In this document: positions 12,468-43,028 of the stretch, piece by piece
Numbering within the stretch: the first letter of the stretch is position 1
Layout of the letters: every line of letters starts with the position of its first letter
NCBI GenBank assembly: GCA_947463915.1
Contig: CANHVO010000015.1
Location: 1 to 44,209, forward strand
DNA: 44,209 nt
DNA from: Planctomycetaceae bacterium
Lineage (GTDB): Bacteria > Planctomycetota > Planctomycetia > Pirellulales > Pirellulaceae
Reading direction: 5' to 3'
Position numbers and translations under genes: made by a program
Notes under the pieces: generated by a model
What the model was told of the DNA's origin: nothing
Databases searched by the model: none
What the model saw: only the letters and a program-made list of their open reading frames with translations

Positions 12468-12490
12468 GTCCTCAAGGCCCCGTATTTCTA

Positions 12491-12750
12491 GCACGACGCG
12501 CTAGCTAGTGAATTGAACTCGTTCCCAGACGCCGCCGCGGAGCCTCGAAAGCAGCGCGTTCCAAGCCGGAGCCCAACGACGTGAAGCCTTTTGTAGCGAA
12601 ACTCGTCAAGAGTTTCGGTCGTTTAGGCAATGCTGCCGAAAGTCTTGACGACTTTCGCTACGCAAAAGCCCGCTTTAAACAAGAGAAAATCGCTCATGGT
12701 GTTGGGTGGAGCTCTGGGACGAGAGTGAACCACTGGCTTGCGCGTCGTGC
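12491..12750. repeat. GCACGACGCG-type inverted repeat interrupted by another palindrome
   Basis: The left arm GCACGACGCGCTAGCTAGT (12491-12509) and the reverse complement of the right arm, GCACGACGCGCAAGCCAGT (12732-12750), agree at 17 of 19 positions. Other copies have 17-18 nt between arms; here they are 222 nt apart and the 69-bp-core element sits between them. This looks like one repeat nested in another. Confidence 0.6.
12593..12661 (+). repeat. GTAGCG bipartite palindrome, copy 1 (core)
   Basis: The 69-bp core is a 26-bp A arm, a 17-bp spacer and a 26-bp B arm. The A arm holds GAAACTC-GTCAA-GAGTTTC, the B arm GAAAGTC-TTGAC-GACTTTC. Outer inverted repeats around CCAAC...TGA extend the element to about 12572-12706 (135 bp). 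The core is 110 bp downstream of the cyclase stop. Confidence 0.9.
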
Positions 12751-12771
12751 TCAGTTTTCGGACTGTCACTG

Positions 12772-14652
12772 CTACTTGCTTTTGGCATTCCAAACCGGAG
12801 AAAATGGCTGCGATGGCTCGACCAGTTCATTGACTGCCCGGACAAGCATGATTAAAGATGGGCCGTCAGCCGGGAACTGTTGTACCAGCGAACCGAACGC
12901 GCGTACCGCTTCTCGAAAATGACAGCCCGACTCGTAAAGTTCTAAAGCCGCAGCGTAGGCAGCCACGAGTTCGGCATTTTTCGCGGAGTCGTTAGGCAAC
13001 AATTCGAACAGATCTAAATCGCCATCAAGTCCGACCACTTTCGCTCTGCAAAGTCTTCGTTTTAATAAATCGCTTGGCAAGCATTTTGCGGTCTCTTCAT
13101 CCATGAGTGCCGAGACTTTCCAATGCTTGGTGAGCCCCTGGATTCGGCTTCCTAGATTCACTGTTCGGCCCATTGGGCCATATTTGAACTTCTGTTTGGA
13201 ACCTGTATTTCCAACCCGCGCAGGCCCCGTGCAGATTCCAATTCCGAAATCAATCCCTTCCGGAATCGATTCCTTGTATCTTTCGCTCAAATTTTTTCGA
13301 AGCGCCATCATTTCTCGGGCTGCCATGGCTGTCCGAAACGCATGATCGGGAGAAACCTCTGGCGCTCCCCACATCGCAAACATCTCATCCCCTACGTAAT
13401 CAACCAAGACGCCGTCCGATTCCAAAACCAAGGCTGACAGCTCGCTTAGTATGTCGCCAATCCAAGACATGGCTGCTTTGGTACCAATCAAATCTGTCGT
13501 ATGACTGAACCCGCGTATGTCACAGAACAATACCGATACCTCGACATCCTCCCCTTCTAGCAATGCCGGATTGAGACTAATCGCCTCAGTCACTTTAGGA
13601 GAGAAAAACTGTTGGTATTTGGTCACGAGCGTCTCTCGTTTTATGCGAGCAATACTCGAGGCGATCGCCGTTGCAAGAATCGCAATCAATCGTTGTTCCG
13701 CTTCCATGACCCTGCCCAATTGCCATTCCACATTCAGCATGCGATCCGCATAAAGAACTCCAAGGATCTCATTGCCTCCTTCGAGGATGTCGAGAATTGG
13801 GCAAGCGACGGCAGTATGCAGCAATTGAACACTCATCGATTGCAGATCGGACGAGCCTCTGTGAGATTTCGGATAGACGACAATTCGCTTGGTGTCCAGC
13901 ACTTGCTGCAACATGGTATTCGATGGCGCTCGCAAGCTCGCTTCGTCGATTCGAGGATTGACGAAACGCCTAGAAGCATCAAACTCCCACTGCTTGCCAT
14001 CCCACAATATAACTTCAGCTCGATCCACTTCGATAATACTCGCTACGGCTTGCGCGATTCCCAAAAAGAAGCCAGCGGAAGAAACCGGGCGTTGCATAGC
14101 TGAGACCGCTTGCCCCAACCATTCGAGTACGACTTGGACGTCAAGCTGAGAACCGCTCCCCCCTTGCATTGAAAATCGAGAAAAGCTCTGCTGAGGTTCA
14201 AACAACTCGTTGCCTGATAGCCTTAGTGGAGCCACACCTATCGCGCAGAGACTTCCTTCCCAGGCTTCATCAACGTATTGCGGCTTTTGGGTAACGCTCG
14301 ATTCAAAGCTCAACGAGATGCTCTCGGGCAATTGAATCTTGGAGGGTAAATCAATTGTGCAACTTTCATTGAAGCCAAGTGTCTTGATGCCGGGCACGGC
14401 AATGGTCGCACTTTTGTGAAGGTTCGATATTCGCCATTGATTCCCTTCTGTCGGATCAAGACGAATGAGAGAACGGGGTACCGTTCGCAGCTCAAGTTCT
14501 GCGATGATCAGTCGCCATTGCCCAAGAGGATTTTGATACAAAAGCGGTTCCTCAGGCTCGCCAATCTGCCTTCGCCCAATCTCCACTGCCTCATCAATCG
14601 ACGCAGAATAGACAGTCGCCCCGTTTCTAGTGACTGTTACGAGTAGTGACAC
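12772..14652 (-). CDS. Class III adenylate/guanylate cyclase with FHA-like and GAF domains
   Basis: A 626-residue soluble protein. Residues about 1-115 look FHA-like (EIGRR at 24-28, RSLIRL, WRISNL). Residues about 180-335 look like a GAF domain (AEVILWDGKQWEFD, ILGVLYADR). A class III cyclase catalytic domain spans about 368-560: metal-binding Asp 378 in FCDIRGFS and Asp 422 in GDEMFAMWG, and the transition-state Asn 499 and Arg 503 in GRTVNLGSRIQG. Both metal sites and the Asn-Arg pair are present, so it should make a cyclic nucleotide; by family habit cAMP is likelier than cGMP, but the specificity residues are not decisive. The start is GTG. It is divergent from the small kinase-associated-domain gene at 14824. 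Confidence 0.88.
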   Translation of the reverse strand: MSLLVTVTRNGATVYSASIDEAVEIGRRQIGEPEEPLLYQNPLGQWRLIIAELELRTVPRSLIRLDPTEGNQWRISNLHKSATIAVPGIKTLGFNESCTIDLPSKIQLPESISLSFESSVTQKPQYVDEAWEGSLCAIGVAPLRLSGNELFEPQQSFSRFSMQGGSGSQLDVQVVLEWLGQAVSAMQRPVSSAGFFLGIAQAVASIIEVDRAEVILWDGKQWEFDASRRFVNPRIDEASLRAPSNTMLQQVLDTKRIVVYPKSHRGSSDLQSMSVQLLHTAVACPILDILEGGNEILGVLYADRMLNVEWQLGRVMEAEQRLIAILATAIASSIARIKRETLVTKYQQFFSPKVTEAISLNPALLEGEDVEVSVLFCDIRGFSHTTDLIGTKAAMSWIGDILSELSALVLESDGVLVDYVGDEMFAMWGAPEVSPDHAFRTAMAAREMMALRKNLSERYKESIPEGIDFGIGICTGPARVGNTGSKQKFKYGPMGRTVNLGSRIQGLTKHWKVSALMDEETAKCLPSDLLKRRLCRAKVVGLDGDLDLFELLPNDSAKNAELVAAYAAALELYESGCHFREAVRAFGSLVQQFPADGPSLIMLVRAVNELVEPSQPFSPVWNAKSK

Positions 14653-14742
14653 GGTCGGTGGAAACCCCCTATAGAGAAAACTGACTATTCATTGTCGCTA
14701 AAGTACTTGGGCATGGGAAGGAGTCGAAAGCGATCGCTGTCC

Positions 14743-14772
14743 TTGTGACTTCGTGTTGCGATCGGCTATACT
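14743..14772 (+). promoter_or_regulatory. Possible sigma-70-type promoter for the gene at 14824
   Basis: TTGTGA at 14743-14748 and TATACT at 14767-14772 are separated by 18 bp. They match the -35 consensus at 4 of 6 and the -10 consensus at 5 of 6 positions. The spacing to the ATG at 14824 leaves a leader of about 45 nt. Prediction by eye only. Confidence 0.4.
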
Positions 14773-14823
14773 TTAAGCAAAGTTCGGAAAGTATTTTTGC
14801 TTGTAAAATACAAGGTGAGTTCA

Positions 14824-15282
14824 ATGGACCGCGGATTGCTTGTGGCTTTACTAGCCCTACAAAATCAGTTTATCCTCCCTCCGCAGTTCTTGGTCGGATT
14901 TCAGACTTGGCTGGCGAATCGAAGTCAGTCCCTGGACGAGATCCTTGTTCAACGTGCCTACATAACCAAATCACAGCGAGAGAGTCTAACACTAACGATG
15001 ATCGCTATCCTGGAAAAGTCACACAATAATTGGCAAACGGCCGTCGCTGAGAACAATGCGATTGGGACGATTTACCGCGACATGTTGGCTTTTGCAGAAA
15101 AAGACGCAACTGTGTTGGAATGGGTCAAGCAGATCCGAGTATCGATTCCTAGTATTTCGTTACCGGTCGATACGAGCAGACATGTGGGTGCTGAAAAAGA
15201 CCCATACGGCACGATCGACTTTGACACGGAGTTAGGCCCCTATGCCACATTGTCTGGAGAAGAAAGCCAGGCCGAACAATAG
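14824..15282 (+). CDS. Orphan N-terminal regulatory domain of planctomycete Ser/Thr kinases
   Basis: A 152-residue protein starting at the ATG at 14824, with AAGGTGAG just upstream; a start at 14797 would add nine residues. MDRGLLVALLALQNQFI, then SLDEILVQRAYIT, match from memory the segment (DRNLL..LALQ...I...L) found in front of the kinase domain in many large planctomycete Ser/Thr kinases. Here the frame ends shortly after that segment, in an acidic tail, and no kinase motif follows in any frame before the next gene. It may be a stand-alone adaptor that imitates the kinase N-terminus, or a remnant. The family is recalled, not searched. Confidence 0.65.
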   Translation: MDRGLLVALLALQNQFILPPQFLVGFQTWLANRSQSLDEILVQRAYITKSQRESLTLTMIAILEKSHNNWQTAVAENNAIGTIYRDMLAFAEKDATVLEWVKQIRVSIPSISLPVDTSRHVGAEKDPYGTIDFDTELGPYATLSGEESQAEQ

Positions 15283-15288
15283 TTCTAC

Positions 15289-15337
15289 GCACGACGCGCA
15301 AGCTAGTGAATTGGGCAGTCGTTTACTAGCCTGCGGG
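15289..15337. repeat. GCACGACGCG-type inverted repeat, degenerate right arm
   Basis: GCACGACGCGCAAGCTAGT at 15289-15307 is identical to the arm at 7652-7670. The right side, ACTAGCCTGCGGG from 15325, keeps only part of the complementary arm. It begins 7 bp after the stop of the gene at 14824. Confidence 0.65.
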
Positions 15338-15462
15338 TTTTGAAATTGCACACTTGTGATTTCGTAGCAGAATTCGTGAGAATTCTGGCCGCGTCTTAAT
15401 TGCAAAGTGTCTGAATTCTCACGAATTCAGCTACATTTCTCAACACAGTGCAACTTCAAAAC
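15338..15462. repeat. 125-bp bipartite palindrome, GAATTC type
   Basis: The 71-bp core (15364-15434) has a left arm GTAGCAGAATTC-GTGA-GAATTCT and a right arm whose reverse complement is GTAGCTGAATTC-GTGA-GAATTCA. The arms differ at two positions, and the A/T swap keeps each arm's own hairpin. Outer arms TTTTGAAATTGCAC (15338-15351) and GTGCAACTTCAAAA (15448-15461) extend the palindrome. It lies between the small gene at 14824 and the stop at 15474. Confidence 0.8.
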
Positions 15463-15473
15463 TTGCGCGACCG

Positions 15474-16745
15474 CTATTTTGGAGCTTGTTGTTTGGCAAT
15501 CGGTGAGACAACGTTGCTCGACGAGTTGTTGTCATTCGAAGCCACGACTGCAGTCACCACTGCTAGCCCTGCAATACCTAGGCCTGCACCTCCAATACCC
15601 CCGCCGCTGAATCCGCCGCCGCCGAATCCCCCGCCGGCAAAGCCGCCGCCACCTCCTAAAGAGCCTACTCCCACACCGCTGTTACCAGCCATTGGCAGTC
15701 CCGAAACTGGACTTGCCGATGATGATGCAGTATTCGGCTGGCCATATGCTTGCCAAATTCGATCGGTGATTTGGGGGACCAGTTTCGGAGGACACAAAAA
15801 GACAAATAGTTTTTCGTTTGAGTCGGCTTGAACAAACGATACGGGTCTTCCGGAAATGGAGTCACCAACTCGGACTTGCTTTTCTGTCGGAAGGACATCG
15901 AACGCATAAGAAGCGTAGCCTGCTGGCCCGGCCGCAATCACGCTATACGAACCCGGTTTTAGCCCGGGAACATTAAAACTCCCGTCGCTTGGATTCGAAT
16001 CGGTTCGAGCGACTACCTGATTGTTACGCAAAAATGTCAATCTGGCATAGCGAAGATTTTCGGCTAATTCTTTGTCGGCAATCACAATCTTCCCGGGCAT
16101 ACTTCCATCATTCCCCAATCGCACACTATAAGGATTCACCGATTGCAGTTTGTATTCGCTGGCATCATAAAGCTTCCCTCCTAGAGTGTCAGAAGGAACG
16201 ATGCCTCTGGCTATTGAGCTCAAGATTTCTTCTCGATTGACTGGCGCTAACGGCAAGCTAATCGAGTTGGAAGTGATGTTTCGCTTTGCGGCATTTTCAG
16301 CGCTCACCGTCAACAAAGGTACCGCCGCATGGACGTTCTCATCGACCACCAACAGTGCATGGAGTTCATCTGGTTGTACGTCCGTGAACGTCGCAATCCC
16401 TTGCAAATCCGTCGTCGCTTCTTTTTCTTTCCCGCTGGAATTTAGCAATCGAACCAAAAGGCTTGACTTCGGCACTTGAGCATTGATTGCACCCATCGCC
16501 ACCAATGCAACTTCCATCTTGTTGCCATCCACCCTCACCATGAAGTCTTCAGGGAGCTCTATTTCTTGGCCCTGCGCATTTAAAATTTTGACCAAATGCG
16601 TATCGGTGACATTGCTGTCGTCGTCCAACACAGCGTAAAGACTCGACACGCTTGACAACGCAAGTCCAACAGCGAAGCCTGCATTCGCTAACCGTGAAAA
16701 TGCGGACACGCGAACGAAACAACCGGAAGAGTCTGACTGAGACAC
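15474..16745 (-). CDS. Secreted protein with carboxypeptidase-regulatory-like domain and Gly-rich C-terminus
   Basis: A 423-residue protein with a GTG start preceded by GAGGG. A signal peptide is likely at about 12-38 (VGLALSSVSSLYA). The middle (about 215-290: IVIADKELAENLRYARLTFL, SDGSFNVPGLKPGSYSVIAAG) resembles a carboxypeptidase regulatory-like (peptidase-associated beta-sandwich) domain. The C-terminus has a run of Gly triplets (about 360-385), a hydrophobic stretch (GLGIAGLAVVTAVVAS) and an Asn/Ser/Gln-rich end. That layout suggests an exported envelope protein anchored at its C-terminus. No enzyme motif is visible. Confidence 0.65.
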   Translation of the reverse strand: MSQSDSSGCFVRVSAFSRLANAGFAVGLALSSVSSLYAVLDDDSNVTDTHLVKILNAQGQEIELPEDFMVRVDGNKMEVALVAMGAINAQVPKSSLLVRLLNSSGKEKEATTDLQGIATFTDVQPDELHALLVVDENVHAAVPLLTVSAENAAKRNITSNSISLPLAPVNREEILSSIARGIVPSDTLGGKLYDASEYKLQSVNPYSVRLGNDGSMPGKIVIADKELAENLRYARLTFLRNNQVVARTDSNPSDGSFNVPGLKPGSYSVIAAGPAGYASYAFDVLPTEKQVRVGDSISGRPVSFVQADSNEKLFVFLCPPKLVPQITDRIWQAYGQPNTASSSASPVSGLPMAGNSGVGVGSLGGGGGFAGGGFGGGGFSGGGIGGAGLGIAGLAVVTAVVASNDNNSSSNVVSPIAKQQAPK

Positions 16746-17100
16746 GATGCCCTCACTTCGATTTACATGCTAAAAACGATTTCGACTCGACAAACGACTT
16801 GCTTGGTGACAACTAGCTCGATAATCCCAAAAACATCTTTCTTGTCGAATTGCCTATTCATCAAATAGTAGCCTAACATCCTTCCATAGTCCAAGCAAAA
16901 AGGTCCCTAAGTCACCCCCCGTTCAGTTGAGGATGGGTGGCGATTTTCAATGCCAAAAGAACACGCTTTTCTGTAGCGAAAGTCGTCAAGACTTTCGGCT
17001 TCAACGCCTAAACGACCAAAACTCTTGACGAGTTTCGCTGCAAAATACTTCAGCGCGTTGCCGTTTAGTGATGCATTGAATGTGACCTTACGATCAAAAA
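16746..17100. other. Intergenic region upstream of the secreted protein
   Basis: This 355-bp gap holds one 69-bp-core palindrome (16973-17041). The rest is unique sequence. A weak minus-strand promoter-like pair (TTGGAC, 18 nt, TACTAT) is seen around 16865-16895 but is not strong enough to list. Confidence 0.45.
16973..17041 (-). repeat. GTAGCG bipartite palindrome, copy 2 (reverse orientation)
   Basis: A 69-bp core with the B arm (GAAAGTC-GTCAA-GACTTTC) on the left and the A arm on the right, so it is reversed relative to copy 1. The outer CTTCAGCGCGTTGCC end is at 17050-17062. It is 60 bp downstream of the beta-helix kinase stop. Confidence 0.88.
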
Positions 17101-20073: not shown

Positions 20074-20433
20074 ACAACACCTCAAGTTGGAATTCGCGAC
20101 CAGAGTAAAACACGTAGCCCTTAAGTCTCGAGGGAAAGGTCCAAGGTGGCACTGGAAGCAGCATGCTCACGTTCCTCTCTATCTTAAACCCGCTGATCAA
20201 GACCGAACAGACGTGGCAATCAAAATGCCCGCCCAAGTTACGCACGCCCGCAATTCGCCGAGAAACTCGCGTTCTAGCCCATCTACGTTGATAACCGCAA
20301 CTAACGCCAAAGCTTGGTCGCTTTCCGTTTCGATGGTGTCTTGCCGGCGATTGGCGCAAGTATGGCGTTCAGGCGATACTGACGTAGAATAAAAACAGTT
20401 CTAACTACAATCACTTAAAGTGGAAAGTTTGCC
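20074..20433. other. Intergenic region between divergent genes
   Basis: This 360-bp stretch separates the minus-strand kinase from the plus-strand Coa1-like gene and should contain both promoters. I see no repeat, RNA or convincing promoter motif in it. The frames open here have no family-like content. Confidence 0.5.
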
Positions 20434-20916: not shown

Positions 20917-20971
20917 ACGTTACCATTCGATTCCCCTATTGCCCAGTTTCGGATCCGTTTTGAAGCATTTT

Positions 20972-21040
20972 GTAGCGAAACTCGTCAAGAGTTTCGGTCG
21001 TTTCCGCGATGCGGCCGAAAGTCTTGACGACTTTCGCTAC
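20972..21040 (+). repeat. GTAGCG bipartite palindrome, copy 3 (core)
   Basis: A 69-bp core in the A-left orientation with canonical arms and a spacer of TCGTTTCCGCGATGCGG. It lies 55 bp after the Coa1-like stop and about 100 bp before the next start. The upstream part, TTGAAGCATTTT, matches the outer left end of other copies. Confidence 0.9.
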
Positions 21041-21137
21041 ACAAAAGCCTGACAATTTCCTGACTTTCACTTTGGTCTCCAATGGTACATTGTCTCCAAG
21101 ATCAATTGTTAGCACTTGAAACGAAGGACTCTCAACC

Positions 21138-22832: not shown

Positions 22833-22893
22833 TTCGATGCGCAGCAGTGCTGTTCAAATCGCCGCGCGAAGTAAGAAAACGGTCTCCAGGGCT

Positions 22894-23667
22894 TCATGGC
22901 CGGGCCATCATTGGGAACACCTCGACATCGACCCCTGTAGCATAGTGCGCATAGTCTGGAGGGCGATCCGTTTTGGGTAGGCCAACGGCCTCAAGCATCG
23001 TTTGCTTCAGCGATAGTACTGTGGCTCGCTGAGCTGGATAAGGTTTGTGAGAGACTTGCCCGGAATGCATTACTCCATGCCGCTCTACAAAAAGAAGGTA
23101 ACGTTCCAGTAGGAAGTGCTACAAGGAATGGAGTTCCGATGGTCCGAGATGTTCGCCAATGGAGTACTCCACCTGCACTGCAGCTTTCGAACCGATTCGG
23201 GCATTCGAGTACGCGATGCGTTCAGAGTTCTGGCGGATCGATTGACGAGCCACATAATACGGCAAGCTCCAGCCGAGGTTGGCGGCCAATACGGCGATGA
23301 CGGAGTTCGCGTCCAAGGAGAAAAAGTAGACTCCAGGCATCCCTTGATGTACGACATAGGTTCTCATGTTGGTTTCCAAAAAGTTGAAACCAGACCCCAG
23401 TTTCCACCATCGAGGGCGGACGTTTTTCATCACAAACGGAACAAGACCGATAAACGCTTTCCCCTCGAACTCATCAACGATCAGTGGCTTCGGAATGAGT
23501 GATTGAAGAAGACTCGCAGGCACCTCCCAATGAAGAAATAGCAGGTCTCGCCAAAGCTGATAGCCAGCAGGCTTCCCATCAGGCCGAACGGTAGCCGAGA
23601 CTCGGTCAATCACGATCACTCCTCGATTGAAAACGGTAGATTGTAGCAAGGCCTGAAAGGCCGACAT
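22894..23667 (-). pseudogene. DUF2071 (YqjF-like) gene with one in-frame amber codon
   Basis: The minus-strand frame runs 257 codons from the ATG at 23667 to TGA at 22894, interrupted once by TAG at 23119-23121. The first 182 residues carry DUF2071 features: WRDLLFLHWEVP, PKPLIVDEFEGKAFIGLVPF and MPGVYFFSLDANS. Immediately after the TAG the same frame continues HFLLERYLLFVERHGVMH and then PYPAQRATVL, matching the typical C-terminal end of the family (L-E-H-F-L-x-E-R-Y). A GAG Glu codon would need only one base change to become TAG. It is therefore a nonsense-mutated gene, a sequencing error or, less likely, a stop-suppressed gene. DUF2071 has no established enzyme activity. Confidence 0.8.
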
Positions 23668-23675
23668 ATTCCTAG

Positions 23676-23695
23676 CCGTGGCTGATAAGCCACGG
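23676..23695. repeat. Hairpin CCGTGGCT-GATA-AGCCACGG
   Basis: A perfect 8-bp stem with a 4-nt loop, just upstream of the DUF2071 start. A second small dyad, GGCCTGAAAGGCC, covers about 23650-23662. Both look like short dispersed repeats rather than a regulatory site. Confidence 0.6.
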
Positions 23696-23748
23696 TGTCA
23701 AGACCAATCGAGAGACGAGCCCCGAAAGGCAACGCAGTGAAACATTTT

Positions 23749-23817
23749 GTAGCGAAACTCGTCTAAAGTTTCGGTTGTTTATGCAGTGCAGCCGAAAGTC
23801 TAGACGACTTTCGCTAC
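23749..23817 (+). repeat. GTAGCG bipartite palindrome, copy 4 (variant loops)
   Basis: A 69-bp core in A-left orientation. Its A loop is GTCTA rather than GTCAA and its B loop is TAGAC rather than TTGAC, so the loops remain complementary. One A-stem base (G to A) is uncompensated. The full element extends from about 23728 (GGCAACGC) to 23864, where its right end overlaps the stop codon of the next minus-strand gene. Confidence 0.88.
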
Positions 23818-23849
23818 AGAATAGCCTGTTTTCCGTCGAGGAAAATGCT

Positions 23850-24326
23850 TCACAGCGTTTGCCCGATTGGGGCTATCGCCCGTTTCGCATTGAGCCGAAT
23901 TGCAGCTTGCAATCGCTCTTTTGAGACTGCGTTTTTGAGTATCAACGGATCGTGTGGGAAAGCGGGATGGTAGAGAAGGAACGCAGGTATGGAAACCAAT
24001 CCATTGTCTCTTAACAATTGAACAACCGCAGGATCGCTGTTCGTCATATCAGCGCGAAGCGTGACCAATCCGTGATCCCTTATGAAACGATAAGAATCAT
24101 CGCTATTGATGGCAGTCGTTTCATGATACGCGCAAATCGGATCCCAATCTGCAGACAGCGTGATCAACACGGATTGGTTGCGTTGGAGTGCAAGCTGGAG
24201 AGTCGCTGATGAATAAGGCTCCCATTGTAGCGGCCTATTGCGAAAGCTGTCGACAATCAACCAAGTCCCCAACGCGACGACTACGAAAACGACGAATAAC
24301 GATCGGATACCAAACTGAACTCGCAT
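23850..24326 (-). CDS. Membrane-anchored thioredoxin-like protein lacking the first CxxC cysteine
   Basis: A 158-residue protein starting at the ATG at 24326 (FGIRSLFVVFVVVALGTWLI), where a TM helix begins; longer starts at 24365 and 24395 add residues with no family support. A thioredoxin-like fold follows, close to the DsbD C-terminal domain: LITLSADWDPICAYHE, then RADMTNSD and VSIPAFLLY with the cis-Pro. The usual CxxC is DPIC, so the first Cys is Asp. It may not be able to act as a dithiol oxidoreductase. The last codons, ACG CTG TGA, coincide with the outer end of the palindrome at 23749, which supplies the stop. Confidence 0.7.
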   Translation of the reverse strand: MRVQFGIRSLFVVFVVVALGTWLIVDSFRNRPLQWEPYSSATLQLALQRNQSVLITLSADWDPICAYHETTAINSDDSYRFIRDHGLVTLRADMTNSDPAVVQLLRDNGLVSIPAFLLYHPAFPHDPLILKNAVSKERLQAAIRLNAKRAIAPIGQTL

Positions 24327-24638
24327 AATCCGCTCGCTATCCTCAAATTTGGACCGACAACTCATGATAGGAAATGCATGAGACCGACAAGCCATTCTAC
24401 AACCATGCCATCTTACAAGGGCGAAAGCTGTTTGGAGAGGGGACTTCGTTTAACCGTCAGCCGTAGGTGTACTGCCAAAAGAACGCGGTACGCCTACGGC
24501 AGACCGTTAGACGACCGCGAATCCTAGCATAGCCAGCGATTTATCTCACTTTCCGGCGTCGTATTATGCAGGTTGCGTTTTTTCTTGCTAAACTTGGGGA
24601 CTATCGAATATTCGCGCCACTCACCTTGTCAGTTGCCC
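24327..24638. other. Intergenic region upstream of the DUF58 gene
   Basis: This 312-bp gap separates divergent genes. Apart from the palindrome at 24447-24513 I see only unique sequence. Promoters for both sides must be here, but none can be read with confidence. Confidence 0.45.
24447..24513. repeat. 67-bp imperfect palindrome (CGTTTAAC...GCCGTAGG)
   Basis: The left half reads CGTTTAACCGTCAGCCGTAG onward, and the reverse complement of the right half reads CGTCTAACGGTCTGCCGTAG onward. Most positions agree, with an 8-nt centre. A single arm of this family recurs at 35566-35591. It lies between divergent genes. Confidence 0.7.
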
Positions 24639-28296: not shown

Positions 28297-28301
28297 TCAT
28301 T

Positions 28302-30044
28302 TTGTTGTTCCACTCAGCGGACTCGGGAGCCCCGGGACCAGTTTTCATCGATGCCAGTCGCCTTGAAGCAGCCCATGCCAACGTGGGGGCTCGACTGAGT
28401 GCACAATCTGCGATTGCTCCCAACGCCATTGCAATTGCGTCTCCTCGAGGTTCTCATCGTCAACGCGACCATCGGACCTACGACACGATTTCGATGGCGG
28501 ATTTGGACTATCGGTCCTCGTCGATTGCGGCTGGATTGCAAAGCATGGGGATTGGTCCCGGCAAACGTATTGGTTTGCTGGTTCGATTCGGTGAGGACTT
28601 TATTGCGTTGGTCTTTGCCGTGCTCAAGTCGGGGGCAACACTGGTGTTGATCGATCCCGGAATGGGACGCAAGAACCTCATCGAGTGTTTAGCGGCCACG
28701 AAGCCGGATGGTTTCATTGCCATTCCGATGGCTCACGCCATCCTGCGTTTCTTCCAATCGCGATTCCCGAGCGCCAAGCTCAATGTAACAGCGGGGCGTT
28801 GGCTGCCTGGACTTCCTAGCGTTACCTTGGACGCATTGGAAAGGCATTCGCCTCAGGACTTGAGATTGCCTCCCACGCAACTGGACGATCCAGCCGCCAT
28901 CATCTTCACCACGGGCAGTACTGGGCCACCCAAGGGAGTCCTTTATACACATGGCACATTCAATGCTCAGATCGATCAAGTGGCTGGTCACTATGAGATC
29001 AAGCCCGGCGGCCGTGACTTGAGCTGCTTTCCATTGTTTGGGCTGTTTAATGCCGTCATGGGAACGACGACGATTTTGCCGGACATGAATCCGATTCGGC
29101 CTGCGGATGTAGATCCTATTCGGCTCCTCGATGCGATCGATCAATGGCAGATCAATCAATCGTTCGGTTCGCCTGCGCTGTGGACGAAAGTGGGCGGCTT
29201 CTGTGCGACAACAGGACGTCGAGTGGAATCGCTACGTTGTGTGTTGTCGGCAGGGGCGCCGGTTCCACCAAGAATCTTGGAACAAATGCGAGCGGCCATG
29301 CATCCAGATGGTTGCATGTATACACCCTACGGGGCGACTGAAGCATTGCCTATCGCATCGATTGAATCGAGGACGGTATTGCACGAGACAGCCGCGTTAA
29401 CGCGACAAGGTGCGGGCACCTGTGTCGGCAATCCTTTCTCGGGCATTCGCTGGCGCATCATCGCAATCGACGACGGACCGATGGACGATATATCGAAGAC
29501 ACGAGAGTTGCCTCTGGGTGAGATTGGCGAATTGATGGTTAGCGGTCCAGTTGTTTCGAAAACCTATATGACTCGTCCAGATCAAAATGCTATCCACAAA
29601 GTCAAAGATGGCAAAGCAATTTGGCATCGCATGGGAGATGTTGGATACCTTGATGCTCAAAATCGATTTTGGTTTTGTGGTCGCAAGACGCATCGCGTGA
29701 TCACTGGCCCAAGAGTTCTCTTCACGGAAACCATCGAAGCTATCGTCAATGCAAACCCTGAGATCTATCGTTCTGCCTTGATTGGATCGGGAGAGCGTGG
29801 TTCGCAAACGCCGATGGTGATCATTGAACCGTGGCCCAAAGGGACGCACGGCCGGAAACTTGGCAACGATCAGTTGCTAGACGTGGTCTTGACCCAGCTG
29901 CGAGCAAACCCGCGCAGTCAGGCAGTAGAACGGGTGGTGGTTTACCCGACAAAACTACCCACCGATATACGTCATAACTCGAAGATTTTTCGCGAGAAGC
30001 TCACAGTGTGGGCAAATAAAAAGTTCAGACCTAAATCATCTTGA
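28302..30044 (+). CDS. OleC-like AMP-dependent ligase / beta-lactone synthetase-like protein
   Basis: A 580-residue member of the ANL (acyl-CoA synthetase) superfamily. Motif A3 FTTGSTGPPKG is at 202-212, then CFPLFGLFNAVMGTTT, and PIRPADVDPIRLLDAIDQWQ and FGSPALWTKV, which I recall as the OleC pattern. A5 YTPYGATEA and a WHRMGDVGYLD, FCGRKTHR C-terminal domain follow. OleC enzymes adenylate and cyclise beta-hydroxy acids to beta-lactones in olefin biosynthesis; the same subfamily includes long-chain acyl-CoA ligases. No OleA, OleB or OleD gene lies in this window. The TTG at 28302 is the start, 6 bp after the previous stop; the next ATG would cut the conserved N-terminus. Confidence 0.8.
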   Translation: MLFHSADSGAPGPVFIDASRLEAAHANVGARLSAQSAIAPNAIAIASPRGSHRQRDHRTYDTISMADLDYRSSSIAAGLQSMGIGPGKRIGLLVRFGEDFIALVFAVLKSGATLVLIDPGMGRKNLIECLAATKPDGFIAIPMAHAILRFFQSRFPSAKLNVTAGRWLPGLPSVTLDALERHSPQDLRLPPTQLDDPAAIIFTTGSTGPPKGVLYTHGTFNAQIDQVAGHYEIKPGGRDLSCFPLFGLFNAVMGTTTILPDMNPIRPADVDPIRLLDAIDQWQINQSFGSPALWTKVGGFCATTGRRVESLRCVLSAGAPVPPRILEQMRAAMHPDGCMYTPYGATEALPIASIESRTVLHETAALTRQGAGTCVGNPFSGIRWRIIAIDDGPMDDISKTRELPLGEIGELMVSGPVVSKTYMTRPDQNAIHKVKDGKAIWHRMGDVGYLDAQNRFWFCGRKTHRVITGPRVLFTETIEAIVNANPEIYRSALIGSGERGSQTPMVIIEPWPKGTHGRKLGNDQLLDVVLTQLRANPRSQAVERVVVYPTKLPTDIRHNSKIFREKLTVWANKKFRPKSS

Positions 30045-30188
30045 AGCCATCGATGGGCGAGTCGATGCGATTTTGTCTTCTAGCCGCTTTTCGGCTTTCG
30101 GCAACGCTATCAAGCAATTCAGGATGGCGGGGGCTTGTCCCCACCGTCCGCAGCTTTGGAGTTCTAGATTCGCGTTGTCCCCTGTTGC

Positions 30189-30241
30189 ACAACTCCGAAT
30201 TCGTCGCACCGCCATTGGCGGTGCGACGAATTCGGAGTTGT
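30189..30241. repeat. Perfect long inverted repeat, 26-bp arms
   Basis: The arms are perfectly complementary around the single base at 30215 (physically a 3-nt ATT loop), running from ACAACTCC at 30189 to GGAGTTGT at 30241. It is followed by TATTTT. It could act as a terminator for the OleC-like gene, 145 bp upstream, but the T-run is interrupted. Confidence 0.85.
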
Positions 30242-30338
30242 TATTTTCATCACGATGACCATTAGAACACCAAAGCGGTGTCCGGTCGGGACCAGCCCGA
30301 ACCGGACAAAACTTGGGATGCTAATGACGGGCTTTTGT

Positions 30339-30407
30339 GTAGCGAAAGTCGTCAAGACTTTCGGCTGCATTGCCTTAACGACCGAAACTCTTGACGAGTT
30401 TCGCACC
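30339..30407 (-). repeat. GTAGCG bipartite palindrome, copy 5 (reverse orientation)
   Basis: A 69-bp core in B-left orientation. The last bases are degenerate (GCACC instead of GCTAC). GGCTTTTGTGTAGCG precedes the core, matching the outer right end of other copies. It is 94 bp before the start at 30501. Confidence 0.85.
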
Positions 30408-30950: not shown

Positions 30951-30996
30951 GCGAGCAAATATAGGCGTAGTGTTATCCTCGTTCTATAGTTCTTCT

Positions 30997-31065
30997 GTAG
31001 CGAAACTCGTCAAGAGTTTCGGTCGTTTAGGCGACGCAGTCGAAAGTCTTGACGACTTTCGCTAC
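30997..31065 (+). repeat. GTAGCG bipartite palindrome, copy 6 (core)
   Basis: A 69-bp core in A-left orientation with one change in the B arm (TCGAAAGTC). It sits between two converging genes: 47 bp after the stop at 30950 and 72 bp from the flotillin stop at 31137. The right extension, GCTTTAA...GTTCACGGCGTTG, matches copy 1. Confidence 0.9.
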
Positions 31066-31136
31066 ACAAAAGCCAGCTTTAATTGGGAGGAAATCGTTCA
31101 CGGCGTTGAGCCCCGTCTTGGAATGCACTGCAACAT

Positions 31137-35516: not shown

Positions 35517-35565
35517 TGATTTGTTTGCACCAACTGAGCCGTAGACGTACGGTTGTTGACTTAGT

Positions 35566-35591
35566 CGTTTAACAGTCAGCCGAAGGCGTAC
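35566..35591. repeat. Single arm of the CGTTTAAC...GCCGTAGG palindrome family
   Basis: CGTTTAACAGTCAGCCGAAG onward matches the left arm at 24447 with few changes. A related GCCGTAGACGTACGG precedes it at 35538-35552. It lies between a LolA-like gene and the histidine kinase. Confidence 0.5.
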
Positions 35592-35687
35592 TCAGTACCT
35601 CCACCTTCTGCGAAGCAAAACAGCAAGCTCCTCGCAAAAGCGTCGGGGGCCCCCCCTGCGAGTAACCTGAAACAATGGACTGGAACT

Positions 35688-38751: not shown

Positions 38752-38777
38752 GTGTGACACAGCCAACAAAAGCAGCA

Positions 38778-38795
38778 GGCACGCTTCGTCGTGCC
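38778..38795. repeat. Hairpin GGCACG-CTTCGT-CGTGCC
   Basis: A 6-bp stem with a 6-nt loop between the converging ends of the response-regulator gene and the squalene-cyclase-repeat gene. A T-run is lacking, so it is not a clear terminator. Confidence 0.4.
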
Positions 38796-38846
38796 GTACG
38801 CGGGAGTGAACTGACGAGGAGTCCTGTGAACGGCACACCAGCTGTT

Positions 38847-39938
38847 TCATCGCTGAAAGATAGGCAGATACCCTAAATCCAATTGCAACATGATCAGGTT
38901 GCACGCGGTCTTATAGACCTTGTCATACGAGTTCTGCTCCTGCGCCCACGAACCATCTTGCGTCTGTTCGTCCGTTATCCTGGCATAGAGACGATCACGA
39001 AATGGAAGCCAATCCTCATCCCCTTGGCGGTAGACAACTTGGCTGTAATAAAGGTATGTGTAGTGCCAATGGCCAAACGAATCTTCACCAGGCCCGATGT
39101 TGTAAAGATTTTTTCGCGAGTAGGCCAGCATTTCCGGCACTTTTTTGCTCTCATAGTCACCAGCATTGTAGAGAGCGGCAAGACTCGCAGCAGTGATCGC
39201 TGGGCGTGATGATCCCATCTGTTGGCTTGAATAGCTGATGCCACCATCTTCGTTTTGGCACTTATAGATGTATCGCTTTGCTGATTCGATAATCTCGGTC
39301 GGCACTGCGATGCCAGCATTGCGACACCCTCTTAACCCTTGCACTTGCGTGATGGTGGTGGAGCCTTCGTCGTAATCGTTTCCTTCCTTGGCGCTGACAT
39401 AGCCCCATCCCCCAGCTGGTGTCTGCGATTTACCGCAAAAAGCAACCGCACGCGTCAGCACGTCCATCAAGTCATCTCGCCGGTCCTGAAGCCCTTCTTC
39501 CCCCAAAACCTGAGACAAGAAAAGCATAGAAAACCCATGTCCATACGTGTATCGCTGATCGTCACTATCGCCAATGAGGCCATTTTTTCGGCTTCTGCTG
39601 ATAAGAAAATCGGTCGTGCGTTTTAGTGGAACCGCATAGGGCCCCTGCGTGATGGTTGACCCACTGCAAAGCAGCGCCAAACCCGCTAGAGCCCCGATCG
39701 CAACAGGATACGGAGGGGTGTTCCATTGTCCGAGACTCGACTGTGTTTTCTGGAGAAAGACGAGCCCCTTCTGAGTCGCATTGTCCCAAGATGGATCTCG
39801 AGAATTGCGTGCGAAATCGTCGGCGAACGGCGACTTGGCCATCGCCCGTCCAGCTAACGCCCCACCTAGCGAAATAGCCGCCGTGCTCGCACACCGCGAT
39901 AGAAACCGACGACGCTCAAGCGTTCTTGGATCATGCAT
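38847..39938 (-). CDS. Tat-exported protein with prenyltransferase/squalene-cyclase-type repeats
   Basis: A 363-residue protein from the ATG at 39938, with a twin-arginine signal (ERRRFLSRCASTAAISLGG, cut near residue 34). The rest is an alpha/alpha barrel repeat of the squalene oxidase/prenyltransferase type: GLVFLQKTQSSLGQWNTPPY, CQNEDGGISYSS, ATPAGGWGYVSA-like and TQDGSWAQEQ. A DSDD sequence precedes YTYGHGFSMLFLSQ; it recalls the DxDD of class II terpene cyclases but lies in a part of the repeat where such proteins usually have no acid cluster, so cyclase activity is not assumed. Many planctomycete relatives are of unknown function. Confidence 0.72.
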   Translation of the reverse strand: MHDPRTLERRRFLSRCASTAAISLGGALAGRAMAKSPFADDFARNSRDPSWDNATQKGLVFLQKTQSSLGQWNTPPYPVAIGALAGLALLCSGSTITQGPYAVPLKRTTDFLISRSRKNGLIGDSDDQRYTYGHGFSMLFLSQVLGEEGLQDRRDDLMDVLTRAVAFCGKSQTPAGGWGYVSAKEGNDYDEGSTTITQVQGLRGCRNAGIAVPTEIIESAKRYIYKCQNEDGGISYSSQQMGSSRPAITAASLAALYNAGDYESKKVPEMLAYSRKNLYNIGPGEDSFGHWHYTYLYYSQVVYRQGDEDWLPFRDRLYARITDEQTQDGSWAQEQNSYDKVYKTACNLIMLQLDLGYLPIFQR

Positions 39939-39960
39939 TAGAGGTCTCAAATGTTCTGGT

Positions 39961-40902
39961 TTAGGTTCCTAGATCACCAAACAGCGGAGTAGAGAGATAA
40001 CGTTCCCCGAGGCTGCACATAATGGTCACAATACGTTTGCCTTGGAATTCAGGGCGGGCAGCAACCTGCGCTGCGGCCCACATGTTGGCCCCGCTGCTGA
40101 TGCCCCCCAGAATTCCTTCGTGCTTGGCAAGCTTGCGGCCCCACTCAAAAGCGACCTCATCGTCAACTTGAATGACATCGTCGATAATGGATCGATCGAG
40201 GTTCTTTGGAACGAAGCCCGCGCCGATACCTTGAATGCGATGCTTGCCAGGCTGGCCGCCACTGATCACCGGCGATTGCTTTGGCTCCACGGCGATCGCT
40301 TTGAAATTTGGATTCATTTTTTTGAGATAGCGTGAGACCCCTGTAATGGTCCCTCCTGTTCCGACGCCAGCAACGATCGCATCGATCTGTCCCGCTGAGT
40401 CGGCCCAAATCTCGGGGCCTGTGGTCTTTTCGTGGACAGCTGGATTGGCTGGGTTTTCAAATTGCTGCGGCATCCAGCCGTTGGGGTCGTTCGCAACCAA
40501 TTCCGATGCCTTGGCAATCGCGCCTCGCATTCCATCGGCTGCTGACGTCAGCACTAGACTTGCACCCAATGCCCGGAGCAATGCTCGTCGCTCAACCGAC
40601 ATTGATTCCGGCATGGTCAACGTCAAGCGATAGCCTTTGGCTGCGCAAACGAACGCCAAAGCAATCCCTGTATTGCCACTGGTTGGCTCAATGATATGCG
40701 TGTCCTTGGTCAATCGGCCGCTTTGCTCAGCATCCTCAACCATGGCCATCCCAATTCGATCTTTGACGCTGTGCAGTGGATTAAAGAACTCGCATTTGGC
40801 AAAGACCGTTGCATGTTCTGGTGGCACCAATCGATTGATACGAATCATCGGGGTGTTTCCAACAGTGCTGACAACGCTATCAAAAGTCTTTCCCAAAGCC
40901 AT
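39961..40902 (-). CDS. cysK: Cysteine synthase A (O-acetylserine sulfhydrylase)
   Basis: A 313-residue PLP enzyme from the ATG at 40902 (MALGKTFDSVVSTVGNTPMI); an in-frame start at 40950 would add 16 residues. The PLP Lys is at 47 in NPLHSVKDRIG. EPTSGNTGIALAF forms the substrate loop, GVGTGGTITGVSRYL binds the PLP phosphate and GAGFVPKNLD follows. These fit O-acetylserine sulfhydrylase, which makes cysteine from O-acetylserine and sulfide. CysM or cystathionine beta-synthase-like enzymes share the fold, but the pattern is CysK-like. It stands 253 bp from the next gene. Confidence 0.88.
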   Translation of the reverse strand: MALGKTFDSVVSTVGNTPMIRINRLVPPEHATVFAKCEFFNPLHSVKDRIGMAMVEDAEQSGRLTKDTHIIEPTSGNTGIALAFVCAAKGYRLTLTMPESMSVERRALLRALGASLVLTSAADGMRGAIAKASELVANDPNGWMPQQFENPANPAVHEKTTGPEIWADSAGQIDAIVAGVGTGGTITGVSRYLKKMNPNFKAIAVEPKQSPVISGGQPGKHRIQGIGAGFVPKNLDRSIIDDVIQVDDEVAFEWGRKLAKHEGILGGISSGANMWAAAQVAARPEFQGKRIVTIMCSLGERYLSTPLFGDLGT

Positions 40903-41092
40903 TTGCAAAACTCTCTCGTCTGGAAGGAAGGCTAAATCTGGCGACCGCAAAGCATGCGGCTCTCCAACGACCTGGAGTATACGCTTTTTTCAAGAAATCG
41001 CCCACAGGAGTCTTTTGGCTTGACCAAAACTGGCAAAGAACCTCAGCCAACCATGCGGCAGCAGAAACCCAGGTCATTCTCGGCAAGAGTGC

Positions 41093-41122
41093 CCCACCGT
41101 GGGTCGCATCTGCCGGATGCGA
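41093..41122. repeat. Two adjacent small hairpins
   Basis: CCCAC-C-GTGGG (41093-41103) is followed directly by TCGCATC-TGCCG-GATGCGA (41104-41122). They lie between the coiled-coil gene stop and the cysK start. No T-run is present. They could be a REP-like repeat or leader structure. Confidence 0.55.
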
Positions 41123-41155
41123 CGATTGCGGACATTTGCTGAATGAAGCAAAATA

Positions 41156-42658
41156 CTACTCGCCAGGCGCAGATGGCTTTTGCTCGATGGCACTCGACTG
41201 CTCGTTGGTTGGACGAATCGATTCAAAATAGCGTCTTACGGTTTCGCGATGCCCTAACGGGAGTGGCTCAGAGTCGATCACTTCCTCCATTTTCTTGCGA
41301 AACTCAACATACTTGTCCGAATAAGCACGACTGGCATCCTGCTCTGCCTCTGGCGTGCTCGTCACTTCTCTTTCGCTCGGGCCGTCACCTGCCATGCCGG
41401 TCAAGTTCTCTTGCTTGCGTTGGCTATCAAGTGATGTTTTTTCCTCGCCAGTCGGCGAATTCGATGCTCCTTTTCCCCAGTTGTTCGACGGAGAATTCGA
41501 CTTCGCAACTTTGTTGCCGCCGTTCTTGTTGCATTCGCTTTGGCAGCAGCCTTTGCACTCCGAAAGTCGATTGAGTTGACAGTTCAAACACTCACTGATC
41601 TTCTTCTTCATGCCCTGTTTTTTGCAGACACCTGCTGCTTTGCATTGCCCGTCTTTGCATTTCGATTCTTCGGATTTTTCCAAACCTTCGGTCATTTCCT
41701 TGATCGCATCACTGAGTTCACCTTTCTTGCCTTTTCCTAGGTTTTGACTCAGTTTTTTCATGTTGGCCACAACCGCATCCTTCTCCTTGCGAGTCATCGT
41801 GGAGGAGTCAATTTTCTCTAACTCAGTGGCAGCCTTTTCGTACTTGCCCTCTTCCATCAACTGAGCCGCCGCCTTCATGGCATCGGCTGCTTTCATCGCC
41901 TCGGCAAGCTGCTGCAATTGAGCATCGATCTGAGCGATGTCCAGCTGTTTGACCGCTTCGGTTACTGCAAACTGCATTTCAGACAACTTCGATAGTGCAT
42001 CGCGTTGGTCTACATCCGGTGCCTTCATCTCCTCGAGCATTTCCTTTAGCTCTTCGACCAACTGCTCCAGTTCAGGCGTCTTCTCTTCTTTCAGTAATGT
42101 TTCAAGCTCTTCGACCATCGTCTCTTCCAATATTGCCGCTTGCTCACTTACGACCTGCAAAGGTTCATTCGAGCCTTGCGAAAGCGATTTCGAATGAGGC
42201 AACATCAAACAAGCGATCAAACCTGCACAGCCCATCGATGCCCAAAGAGTTTGTTTCGGTGCAACAATCGGTCTCGCGCGGCTCGGGTCAACTTTGGACA
42301 AGTGCAGTTGCGCGTCAGCCAATTGCAACTCTTGAATATCGGTCCGAGTAGCCAATTCAACGAATTGCAAAGCAGTGGTGGCTCTATCCTTAAGCTGGCA
42401 ATGAACATCGATCAATCTGGCTGCCGTGTGCATTCGTACTGGCCAAACCAGCGCCAAAAAGGCGGGAGCGAATGCGAGAGAAACGAGCGTCGGTAAGATG
42501 CCTGCAAGAGAAACGGCAGGCTGAATCCAATGAGCCACGAGCCAAATGATCCCAAGAGTGGATGACAAAGTAATCGCCCCCATCAACCAACTCAACGCTC
42601 GGTTGATTCGATGACGCCTTTGTACCGGGACCAGTAAAGCGAGGATCGGGTGATTCAT
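41156..42658 (-). CDS. Membrane coiled-coil protein with Cys-rich cluster
   Basis: A 500-residue protein with two or three N-terminal TM helices (about 22-42, 50-70 and 135-155), a Glu/Lys/Ala-rich coiled coil (about 170-330) and a Cys-rich stretch (about 340-385) with nine Cys: CKDGQC, VC, ECLNC, EC, GCC and EC. A Ser/Pro/Asn-rich linker and a helical tail (SDKYVEFRKKMEEVIDSEPL) follow. I recall similar DUF4175-like membrane proteins in planctomycetes, often near DUF58/VWA genes, but here it is beside cysK. The Cys-rich stretch could bind metal or form disulfides. Function is unknown. Confidence 0.65.
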   Translation of the reverse strand: MNHPILALLVPVQRRHRINRALSWLMGAITLSSTLGIIWLVAHWIQPAVSLAGILPTLVSLAFAPAFLALVWPVRMHTAARLIDVHCQLKDRATTALQFVELATRTDIQELQLADAQLHLSKVDPSRARPIVAPKQTLWASMGCAGLIACLMLPHSKSLSQGSNEPLQVVSEQAAILEETMVEELETLLKEEKTPELEQLVEELKEMLEEMKAPDVDQRDALSKLSEMQFAVTEAVKQLDIAQIDAQLQQLAEAMKAADAMKAAAQLMEEGKYEKAATELEKIDSSTMTRKEKDAVVANMKKLSQNLGKGKKGELSDAIKEMTEGLEKSEESKCKDGQCKAAGVCKKQGMKKKISECLNCQLNRLSECKGCCQSECNKNGGNKVAKSNSPSNNWGKGASNSPTGEEKTSLDSQRKQENLTGMAGDGPSEREVTSTPEAEQDASRAYSDKYVEFRKKMEEVIDSEPLPLGHRETVRRYFESIRPTNEQSSAIEQKPSAPGE

Positions 42659-42800
42659 GGCTGCGACCTTGACCTACATTGCGGACGAGTTGGAACAAAA
42701 TTCAACCGGCTGCATTGTATCGGTCTGCGATAAGAAATTGCGAGCGGAAAGAAACGGTTTTTCGCCCTAATCCGCAAAAAAGAGACTCCTCGCTGTCGAT

Positions 42801-42895
42801 AGCGATTCTCTTACAAGGCAGCGATTCTCTCACAAGGCAGCGATTCTGTCGCGAGGCAGCGATTCTGTCGCGAGGCTGCGATTGCCCTCTCGCTC
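42801..42895. repeat. 19-bp tandem array, four units plus a degenerate fifth
   Basis: Units of 19 bp start at 42801, 42820, 42839, 42858 and 42877. The first reads AGCGATTCTCTTACAAGGC, the third and fourth AGCGATTCTGTCGCGAGGC. The fifth keeps only GCGATT and scattered bases. The array lies upstream of the coiled-coil gene. Confidence 0.85.
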
Positions 42896-42922
42896 GGCTT
42901 CGGGAACGCTGTGAAGCTTTTT

Positions 42923-42991
42923 GTAGCGAAACTCGTCAAGAGTTTCGGTGGTTTATGCACTGCAGCCGAAAGTCTTGACGACTTTCGCTAC
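42923..42991 (+). repeat. GTAGCG bipartite palindrome, copy 7 (core)
   Basis: A 69-bp core in A-left orientation with canonical arms and spacer TGGTTTATGCACTGCAG. GGGAACGCTGTGAAGC precedes the core, matching the outer left end seen elsewhere. It is 114 bp past the surface-protein stop. Confidence 0.9.
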
Positions 42992-43028
42992 GGAAAGACG
43001 GTTTTCAGCTACGGAAAGACTGTTTTCA
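42987..43028. repeat. Tandem duplication, 2 x 21 bp
   Basis: GCTACGGAAAGACGGTTTTC onward (42987-43007) is repeated at 43008-43028 with a single base change. The first unit includes the last five bases of the 69-bp core palindrome, so the duplication arose at the palindrome end. Confidence 0.75.

Follow-up and report, generated by a model that had tools for sequence, protein, structure and literature searches.

A 44,209-nucleotide stretch of contig CANHVO010000015.1 of the Planctomycetaceae bacterium assembly GCA_947463915.1 (positions 1 to 44,209, forward strand; hereafter, the window) carries seven copies of a palindromic repeat, and our subject is this repeat family and the larger mobile unit to which it belongs. 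Pfam matches mark the 28 open reading frames (ORFs) of the window as an ordinary set of chromosomal genes, including kinases, a two-component pair, and an AMP-binding enzyme; six have no match. As the initial annotation of this DNA had noted, no transposase was recognised here: none appears among the 28 scanned ORFs, the contig has no Y1_Tnp match, and it holds no relative of the insertion sequence transposase described below.

Each of the seven repeats has a core of exactly 69 bp, made up of a 26-bp arm, a 17-bp spacer, and a second 26-bp arm. Direct checking bore out these lengths and coordinates as first annotated, along with the orientation of the copies: in five, arm A comes first on the plus strand, and the other two are reversed. 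A scan of the window with a 25-base arm pattern at up to three mismatches recovers 14 arms, which form seven inverted pairs, and the same scan of 100 dinucleotide shuffles recovers none. In agreement with the ORF list, every core lies 3′ of at least one gene. The distance to a stop is smallest for the copy at 23749 (copies are named here by the first position of the core), whose core lies 33 bp from the end of the minus-strand ORF 23850-24395, and largest for the copy at 30339, which lies 295 bp past the ORF end at 30044.

Core architecture, copy number, and genomic position

Each 26-bp arm consists of a GTAG foot and a hairpin with an 8-bp stem, with the loop GTCAA in most copies, and the core is therefore a head-to-head doublet of GTAG-type repetitive extragenic palindromic (REP) sequences, also known as a REPIN (REP doublet forming hairpins) or bacterial interspersed mosaic element (BIME). 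The arms are predicted to fold singly (−8.0 and −7.2 kcal/mol) and also to pair together into one long hairpin. Arms A and B differ by a matched swap (AAACTC/GAGTTT versus AAAGTC/GACTTT), and all 32 pairs from the permissive scan described below join one arm of each kind, as judged by two bases; a few copies outside that set have two arms of one kind or a mixed arm. We also considered the core as an intrinsic terminator, a reading rejected by inspection only: in the flanks of the copies from that scan, A-rich sequence mostly follows the core, and a T run immediately next to it is lacking on both strands.

The assembly holding the window (G000, 7.6 Mb in 618 contigs; hereafter, the source genome) contains 255 copies of the 69-bp pattern at up to three mismatches, a one-strand count of a pattern that reads alike on both strands, and none when the pattern is read backwards. 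A permissive arm scan of 844 kb, comprising the window and 40 stretches picked regardless of the repeat, found 32 pairs, 31 of them 69 bp long and one 68 bp long; its reversed control gave no arm with fewer than five mismatches. Among 82 copies in about 1.15 Mb, a set drawn partly from stretches fetched for holding a 69-bp match, 80 measure 69 bp, one 68 bp, and one 66 bp. When 39 relatives (24 of the genus and 15 of the order) were searched with the strict pattern, only the sister species in the same genus (G023) was positive, with 96 copies, and 400 kb of G021 held no arm with fewer than six mismatches. The exact paired pattern, with gaps of 8-36, was found in one of 246 genomes of the order, the source genome itself, in a search limited to exact matches and to a sample that does not include G023.

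Placed against genes from a simple ORF caller, 7 of the 82 copies fall within ORFs, some of them short and of doubtful reality, compared with 17,326 of 20,000 random positions. Fourteen lie at the edges of the stretches, and the other 61 occupy 17 convergent, 35 same-direction, and 9 divergent gaps; divergent gaps are under-used, and 52 of the 61 copies adjoin a gene 3′ end at a median distance of 61 bp. In the sister species, the corresponding figures for 74 copies are 5 in ORFs, 7 at edges, 18 convergent, 38 same-direction, and 6 divergent, although orthologous copies occur in both sets, which are thus not independent. The initial annotation had described a non-autonomous, intergenic family, and had named scarcity elsewhere, variable core length, and frequent copies in coding sequence as signs against it; none of these was seen, the family having a high copy number genome-wide, a near-constant core length (31 of 32 and 80 of 82), and few copies within ORFs.

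The 131-bp inserting unit and its empty sites

The mobile unit is larger than the core. Alignment of the flanks gives the layout of an intact copy as CAACGCTGTGAAGCATTTT, core, a 24-bp link, and AAAATGCTTCACAGCGTTG, for a total of 131 bp, a length shared by 19 of the 26 fuller copies in the alignment. The terminal inverted repeats are 19 bp long, and both are kept (at least 13 of 19 bases in the 131-bp register) in 37 of 133 distinct 69-bp copies from the source genome and the sister species, a set that includes a few orthologous pairs, so that the 37 are not all independent. The 9-mers flanking these 37 two-ended copies match at 5.38 of 9 positions, versus 2.90 with permuted partners (0 of 10,000 permutations as high), while the other 96 copies show no duplication signal (2.14 versus 2.26). 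A scan over duplication length and register gives a single ridge, at 9 bp outside the 131-bp element. Perfect 9/9 target duplications flank the copies in L212, L284, L304, L308, L342, and L370, the last of these a complete 131-bp copy (contig G000:C93) with the duplication CCTAAAAGG. The boundaries of the inserting unit in two-ended copies are thus those of the 131-bp element and not those of the doublet, and the intact form is a 131-bp element with 9-bp target-site duplications. The 'fuller copies' of about 135 bp in the initial annotation were rightly given outer inverted repeats, but the 131-bp length, the 19-bp ends, and the duplications had been missed.

Many copies are worn. In a random sample of 33, with an end counted as kept at 12 of 19 bases, 13 copies retain both ends, 12 the left only, 2 the right only, and 6 neither. 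The window copies illustrate the range (Table 1). Short local duplications also occur at element ends, for instance a repeated end fragment, at L205:12329, L199:5723, L008 (the locus of a gene for a REP-associated tyrosine transposase, RAYT), and L210:17354.

Table 1. Repeat features of the window, with end matches to the 19-bp consensus, flanking 9-mer agreement, and the state of the matching site in the sister species.
Feature	Position	Strand	Description	Flanks and sister species
Arm A (example)	12593-12618	+	GTAG foot, 8-bp stem CGAAACTC/GAGTTTCG, loop GTCAA	
Arm B (example)	12636-12661		Inverted partner of arm A, stem CGAAAGTC/GACTTTCG	
Full-length copy, 131 bp	12574-12704	+	Left end 12574-12592 (16/19), core 12593-12661, right end 12686-12704 (13/19)	9-mers 12565-12573 and 12705-12713 match at 6/9; site without copy
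Reversed copy	16930-17060	−	Core 16973-17041, left end 17042-17060 (16/19), right end unrecognisable (7/19 in register)	Same site occupied
Copy with worn left end	20953-21040	+	Core 20972-21040, left end 20953-20971 (14/19), right end unrecognisable	Flanks not matchable on both sides in pieces examined
Full-length copy, 131 bp	23730-23860	+	Ends 17/19 and 18/19, core 23749-23817	9-mers match at only 4/9; larger stretch of ~700 bp containing the site is missing
Core-only copy	30339-30407	−	Neither end recognisable in register (2/19, 6/19)	Core at same site; adjoining stretch holding repeat 30102-30312 missing
Copy with worn left end	30978-31108	+	Left end 5/19, core 30997-31065, right end 31090-31108 (15/19)	See text
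Copy with left end	42904-42991	+	Core 42923-42991, left end 42904-42922 (17/19), right end unrecognisable	Right flank only matchable in pieces examined
Second repeat type	30102-30312	+	Part of the repeat; starts with end variant CAACGCTATCAAGCAATTC (4 mismatches); interior different and hairpin-rich	See text

The check for empty sites in a relative that the initial annotation proposed was possible in the sister species, which differs from the source genome at 25.5% of fourfold sites in the window genes. Window copies 12593 and 30997 are absent from the matching places there, as is the copy at L184:7749. At site 30997, the sister sequence is as expected, in position and length, if 131 bp and a 9-bp duplication had been added in the source genome, although the left end of the copy is worn and its flanking 9-mers match at only 4/9. 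The copy at L184:7749 has the near-identical 9-mers CTGGGAGGG and TTGGGAGGG on its two sides, and the sister species has a single 9-mer and no copy; the target is itself a repeat, however, and about 150 bp of other DNA lies close by in that genome. Regions fetched by synteny hold nine copies (five in the window, three in L182, and one in L214), of which three are shared and six absent, one of the six (23749) falling in a larger absent stretch. Two copies were placed later, one present (L179:5403) and one absent (L184:7749). Altogether, 24 of the 82 copies had colinear flanks in the sister pieces, most of which had been fetched for holding a copy, so that the share present among them is not an estimate of sharing.

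Other repeats lie beside some copies. Copy 12593 splits a different palindromic repeat into two halves (AGCACGACGCGC...GCGCGTCGTGCT, window ~12485-12755, and also L173), the repeat being whole in the sister species, and tandem AGCTAGTGAATCGAAG units lie near copy 16973 in the latter. Several copies (among them window 12593, L182:5956, L182:13312, L197:14056, and L202:19008) adjoin a CGTTCCAAGGCTCTGCC-type repeat, as if nested; this repeat may be a target or a second carrier.

Element ends in other genomes of the genus

Of 27 genomes of the genus, 11 contain the 19-bp end at up to two mismatches, the source genome included, and a control gave one match in each of two genomes. The two-part counts are 86+83 in the source genome, 43+42 in the sister species, 13+8 in G017, 8+4 in G015, 4+7 in G024, and 1+5 in G021, with three or fewer in five more genomes. 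In G011, two exact 19-bp ends bound a 1600-bp insertion sequence (L351:516-2115) that encodes a 486-aa protein and is flanked by 9-mers matching at 8/9. The protein matches Pfam DDE_Tnp_1 (PF01609; 5.6e-15, 56.1 bits against a cut-off of 23), and the signature Y(2)R(3)E(6)K, which we take to be that of the IS4 family, was found by eye in YKMRWLIEVEFRGLK. A protein 53% identical to this transposase is encoded in G015 (L127). Multi-copy insertion sequences break off at contig ends in fragmented assemblies, and in G024 the same ends reach four contig termini and break off there, matching over 90 to 138 bp at 100% identity (L352, L353, L356, and L357). Moreover, elements of other lengths share the ends or nearly so: 161 and 555 bp in G015, 297 bp (two elements) in G017, and 320 bp in G021; their flanking 9-mers match at 8, 7, 9, 9, and 9 of 9, respectively. 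Given this insertion sequence and these other mini-elements, the ends are those of a transposon family present across the genus, one of whose mini-elements is the REP-bearing 131-bp form.

The repeat at 30102-30312, which has many matches in the sister species though it is missing from this site there, is probably a sibling mini-element and not a copy of the 131-bp element. A segment resembling it, with a good end, comes after a core in L179. A further repeat, of 81 bp, lies directly left of copy 23749 (23649-23729) and has many matches (~78-90%) in G016 and several in G002.

Origin of the family and competing explanations

With an inserting unit bounded by inverted repeats, 9-bp duplications, empty sites, and ends shared with a DDE insertion sequence, we read the family as, in all likelihood, an IS4-type miniature inverted-repeat transposable element (MITE), spread in trans by a DDE transposase and carrying a captured GTAG REP doublet. 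It has what characterizes a MITE: terminal inverted repeats, a fixed-length duplication, a non-coding length of 131 bp, and ends in common with an autonomous element, here one of another species. In the mechanism that we propose, an IS4-type DDE transposase would recognise the 19-bp ends, make the 9-bp target duplications, and copy the element in trans, and the copies of the source genome would have been moved by the insertion sequence of the G011 type or a close relative. On the simplest reading, one doublet would have been captured by a mini-element in the lineage of the source genome and its sister species, riding since then as a passenger; once a copy had inserted, in most cases shortly past a gene, its ends would decay or vanish and the doublet stay visible. 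Descent from one founder with a captured doublet would account for the fixed 69-bp core, the 17-bp spacer, and the similarity of the spacer among copies. The REP/BIME-like family of the initial annotation thus survives in the core, which is a GTAG doublet; the inserting unit itself has DDE-type ends and 9-bp duplications.

The doublet also occurs in other settings. Near-identical arm pairs are present in other planctomycetes (Stieleria, R. maiorica, and several metagenome-assembled genomes) with spacers of 12-42 bp. For 13 of these pairs, the best end match in the surrounding 100 bp is 9-12/19, as in random stretches of the same loci. Arm counts at up to two mismatches in 12 such genomes range from 1 to 213. 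The highest is that of R. maiorica SM1 (G269), whose arms, mostly loop variants GCCAA and GCAGA among those listed, are a diversified arm family. Of 147 copies classified in the source genome and its sister, 13 count as bare doublets under the thresholds used, one or two of them borderline; 10 of the 13 have 17-bp spacers, six of these ten having been fetched by a pattern that required 17. We infer that the doublet was captured by the element and not assembled within it.

Several observations weigh against the MITE interpretation. The 9-mer agreement reaches at least 7 in only 14 of the 37 well-ended copies, and three copies absent from the sister species (30997, L182:13312, and L214:5072) have a worn or lost end despite a perfect 25-base arm match. 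A search with the transposase of ~1.15 of 7.6 Mb of the source genome turned up no copy of the insertion sequence, nor did end matches lying apart from cores in the DNA examined reveal an autonomous copy. A blastn comparison of the insertion sequence with the 131-bp element found no similarity besides the ends. The best NCBIfam match of the transposase, to the IS4 model NF033592, scores 87.6 bits, under the cut-off of 115, and for this reason we write 'IS4-type' and do not call it an IS4 member. Finally, departures from consensus in the random sample of 33 affect 2.7% of arm positions, compared with 13.5 and 13.7% in the kept ends and 11.4% in the spacer (14 defined sites). If a transposase reads the ends alone, the ends should be best conserved, and the reverse is observed. 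That a passenger doublet should be better conserved than the ends that move the element is a puzzle: either the arms aid transposition, or they are under host selection, or they are homogenised.

Host selection leads to an alternative that is compatible with the element being a MITE: the doublets might be kept as host sites, such as RNA-stabilising 3′ hairpins or protein-binding sites, with mobility as the route of arrival. We regard this as possible but doubtful. In its favor, the intergenic copies cluster near gene 3′ ends and seldom occupy divergent gaps (9 of 61), a pattern also expected of tolerated insertions that avoid genes and promoters. In the four shared copies reached through synteny, the arms differ between the two species at 16/208 positions, versus 604/2367 fourfold sites (p = 3e-10), and in ten shared copies the arms on the source-genome side differ from consensus at 19/520. 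Yet the spacer of the same four copies differs at 8/67, not significantly more than the arms (p = 0.32), aligned intergenic DNA of the window differs at 11.7%, and copy turnover is fast, as the three of nine copies shared in the synteny regions and the one of two placed later indicate. The remaining parts of the four copies differ more (link 21/94, left end 12/76, and right end 25/68, some right-end alignments being of lost ends), and the arms are lower than the ends and link together (p = 2e-6). The ten-copy set, made up of these four and six others whose sister side was chosen by its arms, gives 27/520 for arms and 17/168 for the spacer. A claim of host constraint from 16 orthologous copies (arms 27/832, spacer 26/271) was dropped because most sister pieces had been fetched for good arms; that set also held one wrongly oriented pair (L318/L335). 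The ten-copy set replaces it, and the four copies are free of this bias.

The initial annotation had pointed to a RAYT partner, and a REPIN/BIME family moved by a RAYT (a Y1 enzyme of the HUH type) that recognises the GTAG hairpins, with the outer repeats incidental, is a second alternative. The arms share the GTAG foot and hairpin form of RAYT-linked REPs and are the best-conserved part of the element, and bare doublets occur in several planctomycetes. Moreover, a RAYT-like gene (L008/L083) is followed, some 27 bp past its stop, by a perfect core, with the same arrangement at the 96% identical ortholog of the sister species, so that the gene adjoins a copy in both carriers. However, neither 9-bp duplications nor the 131-bp boundaries are expected of Y1 enzymes. 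The left end of the element contains the stop codon of the RAYT-like gene, which is what insertion at the end of that gene would produce, and no element accompanies the G021 ortholog at the same locus; the adjacency therefore looks like an ordinary insertion of the mini-element. Orthologous or related RAYTs also occur in G021 (72%), G016, G009, and G015, genomes without a strict copy. Nor are copies in excess near Y1 genes: the source genome has 14 Y1_Tnp matches, and two of the 14 fetched loci hold a copy, with about 1.5 expected in 41 kb (from 33 copies in 944 kb).

The protein itself scores 63.4 bits with NF047646, under the cut-off of 80. It has the HWH motif, and at the position of the catalytic Tyr it carries Phe, as do its nearest relatives in the genus; more distant relatives carry Tyr, and the aligned residue of E. 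coli TnpAREP (4er8) is Tyr 115 in the printed numbering. Y115F in TnpAEc is reported to yield no product, and Y130F and Y125F in two other enzymes to abolish cleavage (PMC8266576). The neighbouring RAYT is therefore unlikely to be the mobiliser, and with no excess of copies near Y1 genes we rejected it as the mover and consider movement by a RAYT improbable. A further weak match lies on contig C21 of the source genome (38% over part of the protein). Other Y1 genes have their own, different GTAG hairpins in their flanks, the classic RAYT arrangement: L013 (G000:C286), with GTAGAGCGATTGTCTCAATCGCT and a variant at four places, L110 (G033), and L111 (G027).

The L083-type gene is under strong purifying selection (dN/dS 0.059 between the two species). 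Proteins with Phe at this position form the set L083-L091 (the source genome, the sister species, G021, G016, G009, G015, G017, G022, and G024), of which L090 and L091 also lack the HUH motif; they are possibly domesticated, non-cutting RAYTs. It is conceivable, if improbable, that the arms are putative binding sites of such a RAYT without a catalytic Tyr, the doublet being a selected 3′ module that uses an IS4-type MITE as its vehicle. This would explain both the near-identity of the arms against drifting ends and spacer and the purifying selection on a Tyr-less RAYT; against it, the clade also has RAYT members in genomes that showed neither an arm nor a strict copy (G021).

Least probable, the outer palindromes could be a pre-existing target repeat into which REP doublets insert, as PMC3733652 describes for REP dimers inside long palindromes of other bacteria; here, the target duplications lie outside the outer repeats, the empty sites at 30997 and L184:7749 lack the entire 131 bp, and the end matches listed away from cores in the DNA examined are nowhere paired face to face, whether in the 131-bp form or a shorter one.

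How REP doublets multiply in genomes is an open question, usually answered with RAYT enzymes, and the MITE interpretation suggests a second route, an ordinary DDE-type transposase. It also warns that a copy beside a RAYT gene need not mean RAYT-driven movement. Our search of the literature on REP, RAYT, MITEs, and planctomycetes, in titles and abstract openings with figures unsearchable, found no REP doublet inside an IS4-type MITE among the papers listed, and a search for the letters GTAGCGAAACTCGTC found none, although a planctomycete REP consensus published in a figure could escape it. REP doublets and MITEs are each well known; these searches found no earlier account of their combination, with DDE-type ends, 9-bp duplications, and a matching insertion sequence.

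GTAG repeats have been reported for the Planctomycetes-Verrucomicrobia-Chlamydiae superphylum, and different REP families for R. baltica (PMC3733652, PMC3116915). The GTAG REP doublets, REPINs, and BIMEs described there resemble the present core in the GTAG foot, the short hairpins, the head-to-head arrangement, and the intergenic location of more than 100 copies, mostly between convergent or same-direction genes. They differ in that many copies here are enclosed in a larger element that has inverted-repeat ends and is flanked by 9-bp duplications; in addition, the analysis identified no active cognate RAYT. With IS4-type MITEs, the element shares short length, lack of coding, terminal inverted repeats, a fixed duplication, and ends in common with a longer transposase-coding element, but its interior is a REP doublet without a recognised remnant of the insertion sequence, and its arms are better conserved than its ends. 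TIRYT/TIRtrons (PMC3733652) likewise form repeat families from inverted repeats unrelated to REPs; those repeats flank tyrosine transposase genes, whereas the ends here flank a DDE transposase. Parallels in layout are GTAG-15 of A. variabilis and CGTC-1 of H. neapolitanus (PMC3733652), in which a REP dimer lies within an outer inverted repeat. The dimers there are described as inserted into a palindrome, whereas the duplications and the matching insertion sequence show the outer repeat of the present family to be the end of a transposable unit. By analogy, those REP dimers within long palindromes may be earlier cases open to the same MITE reading, which can be tested.

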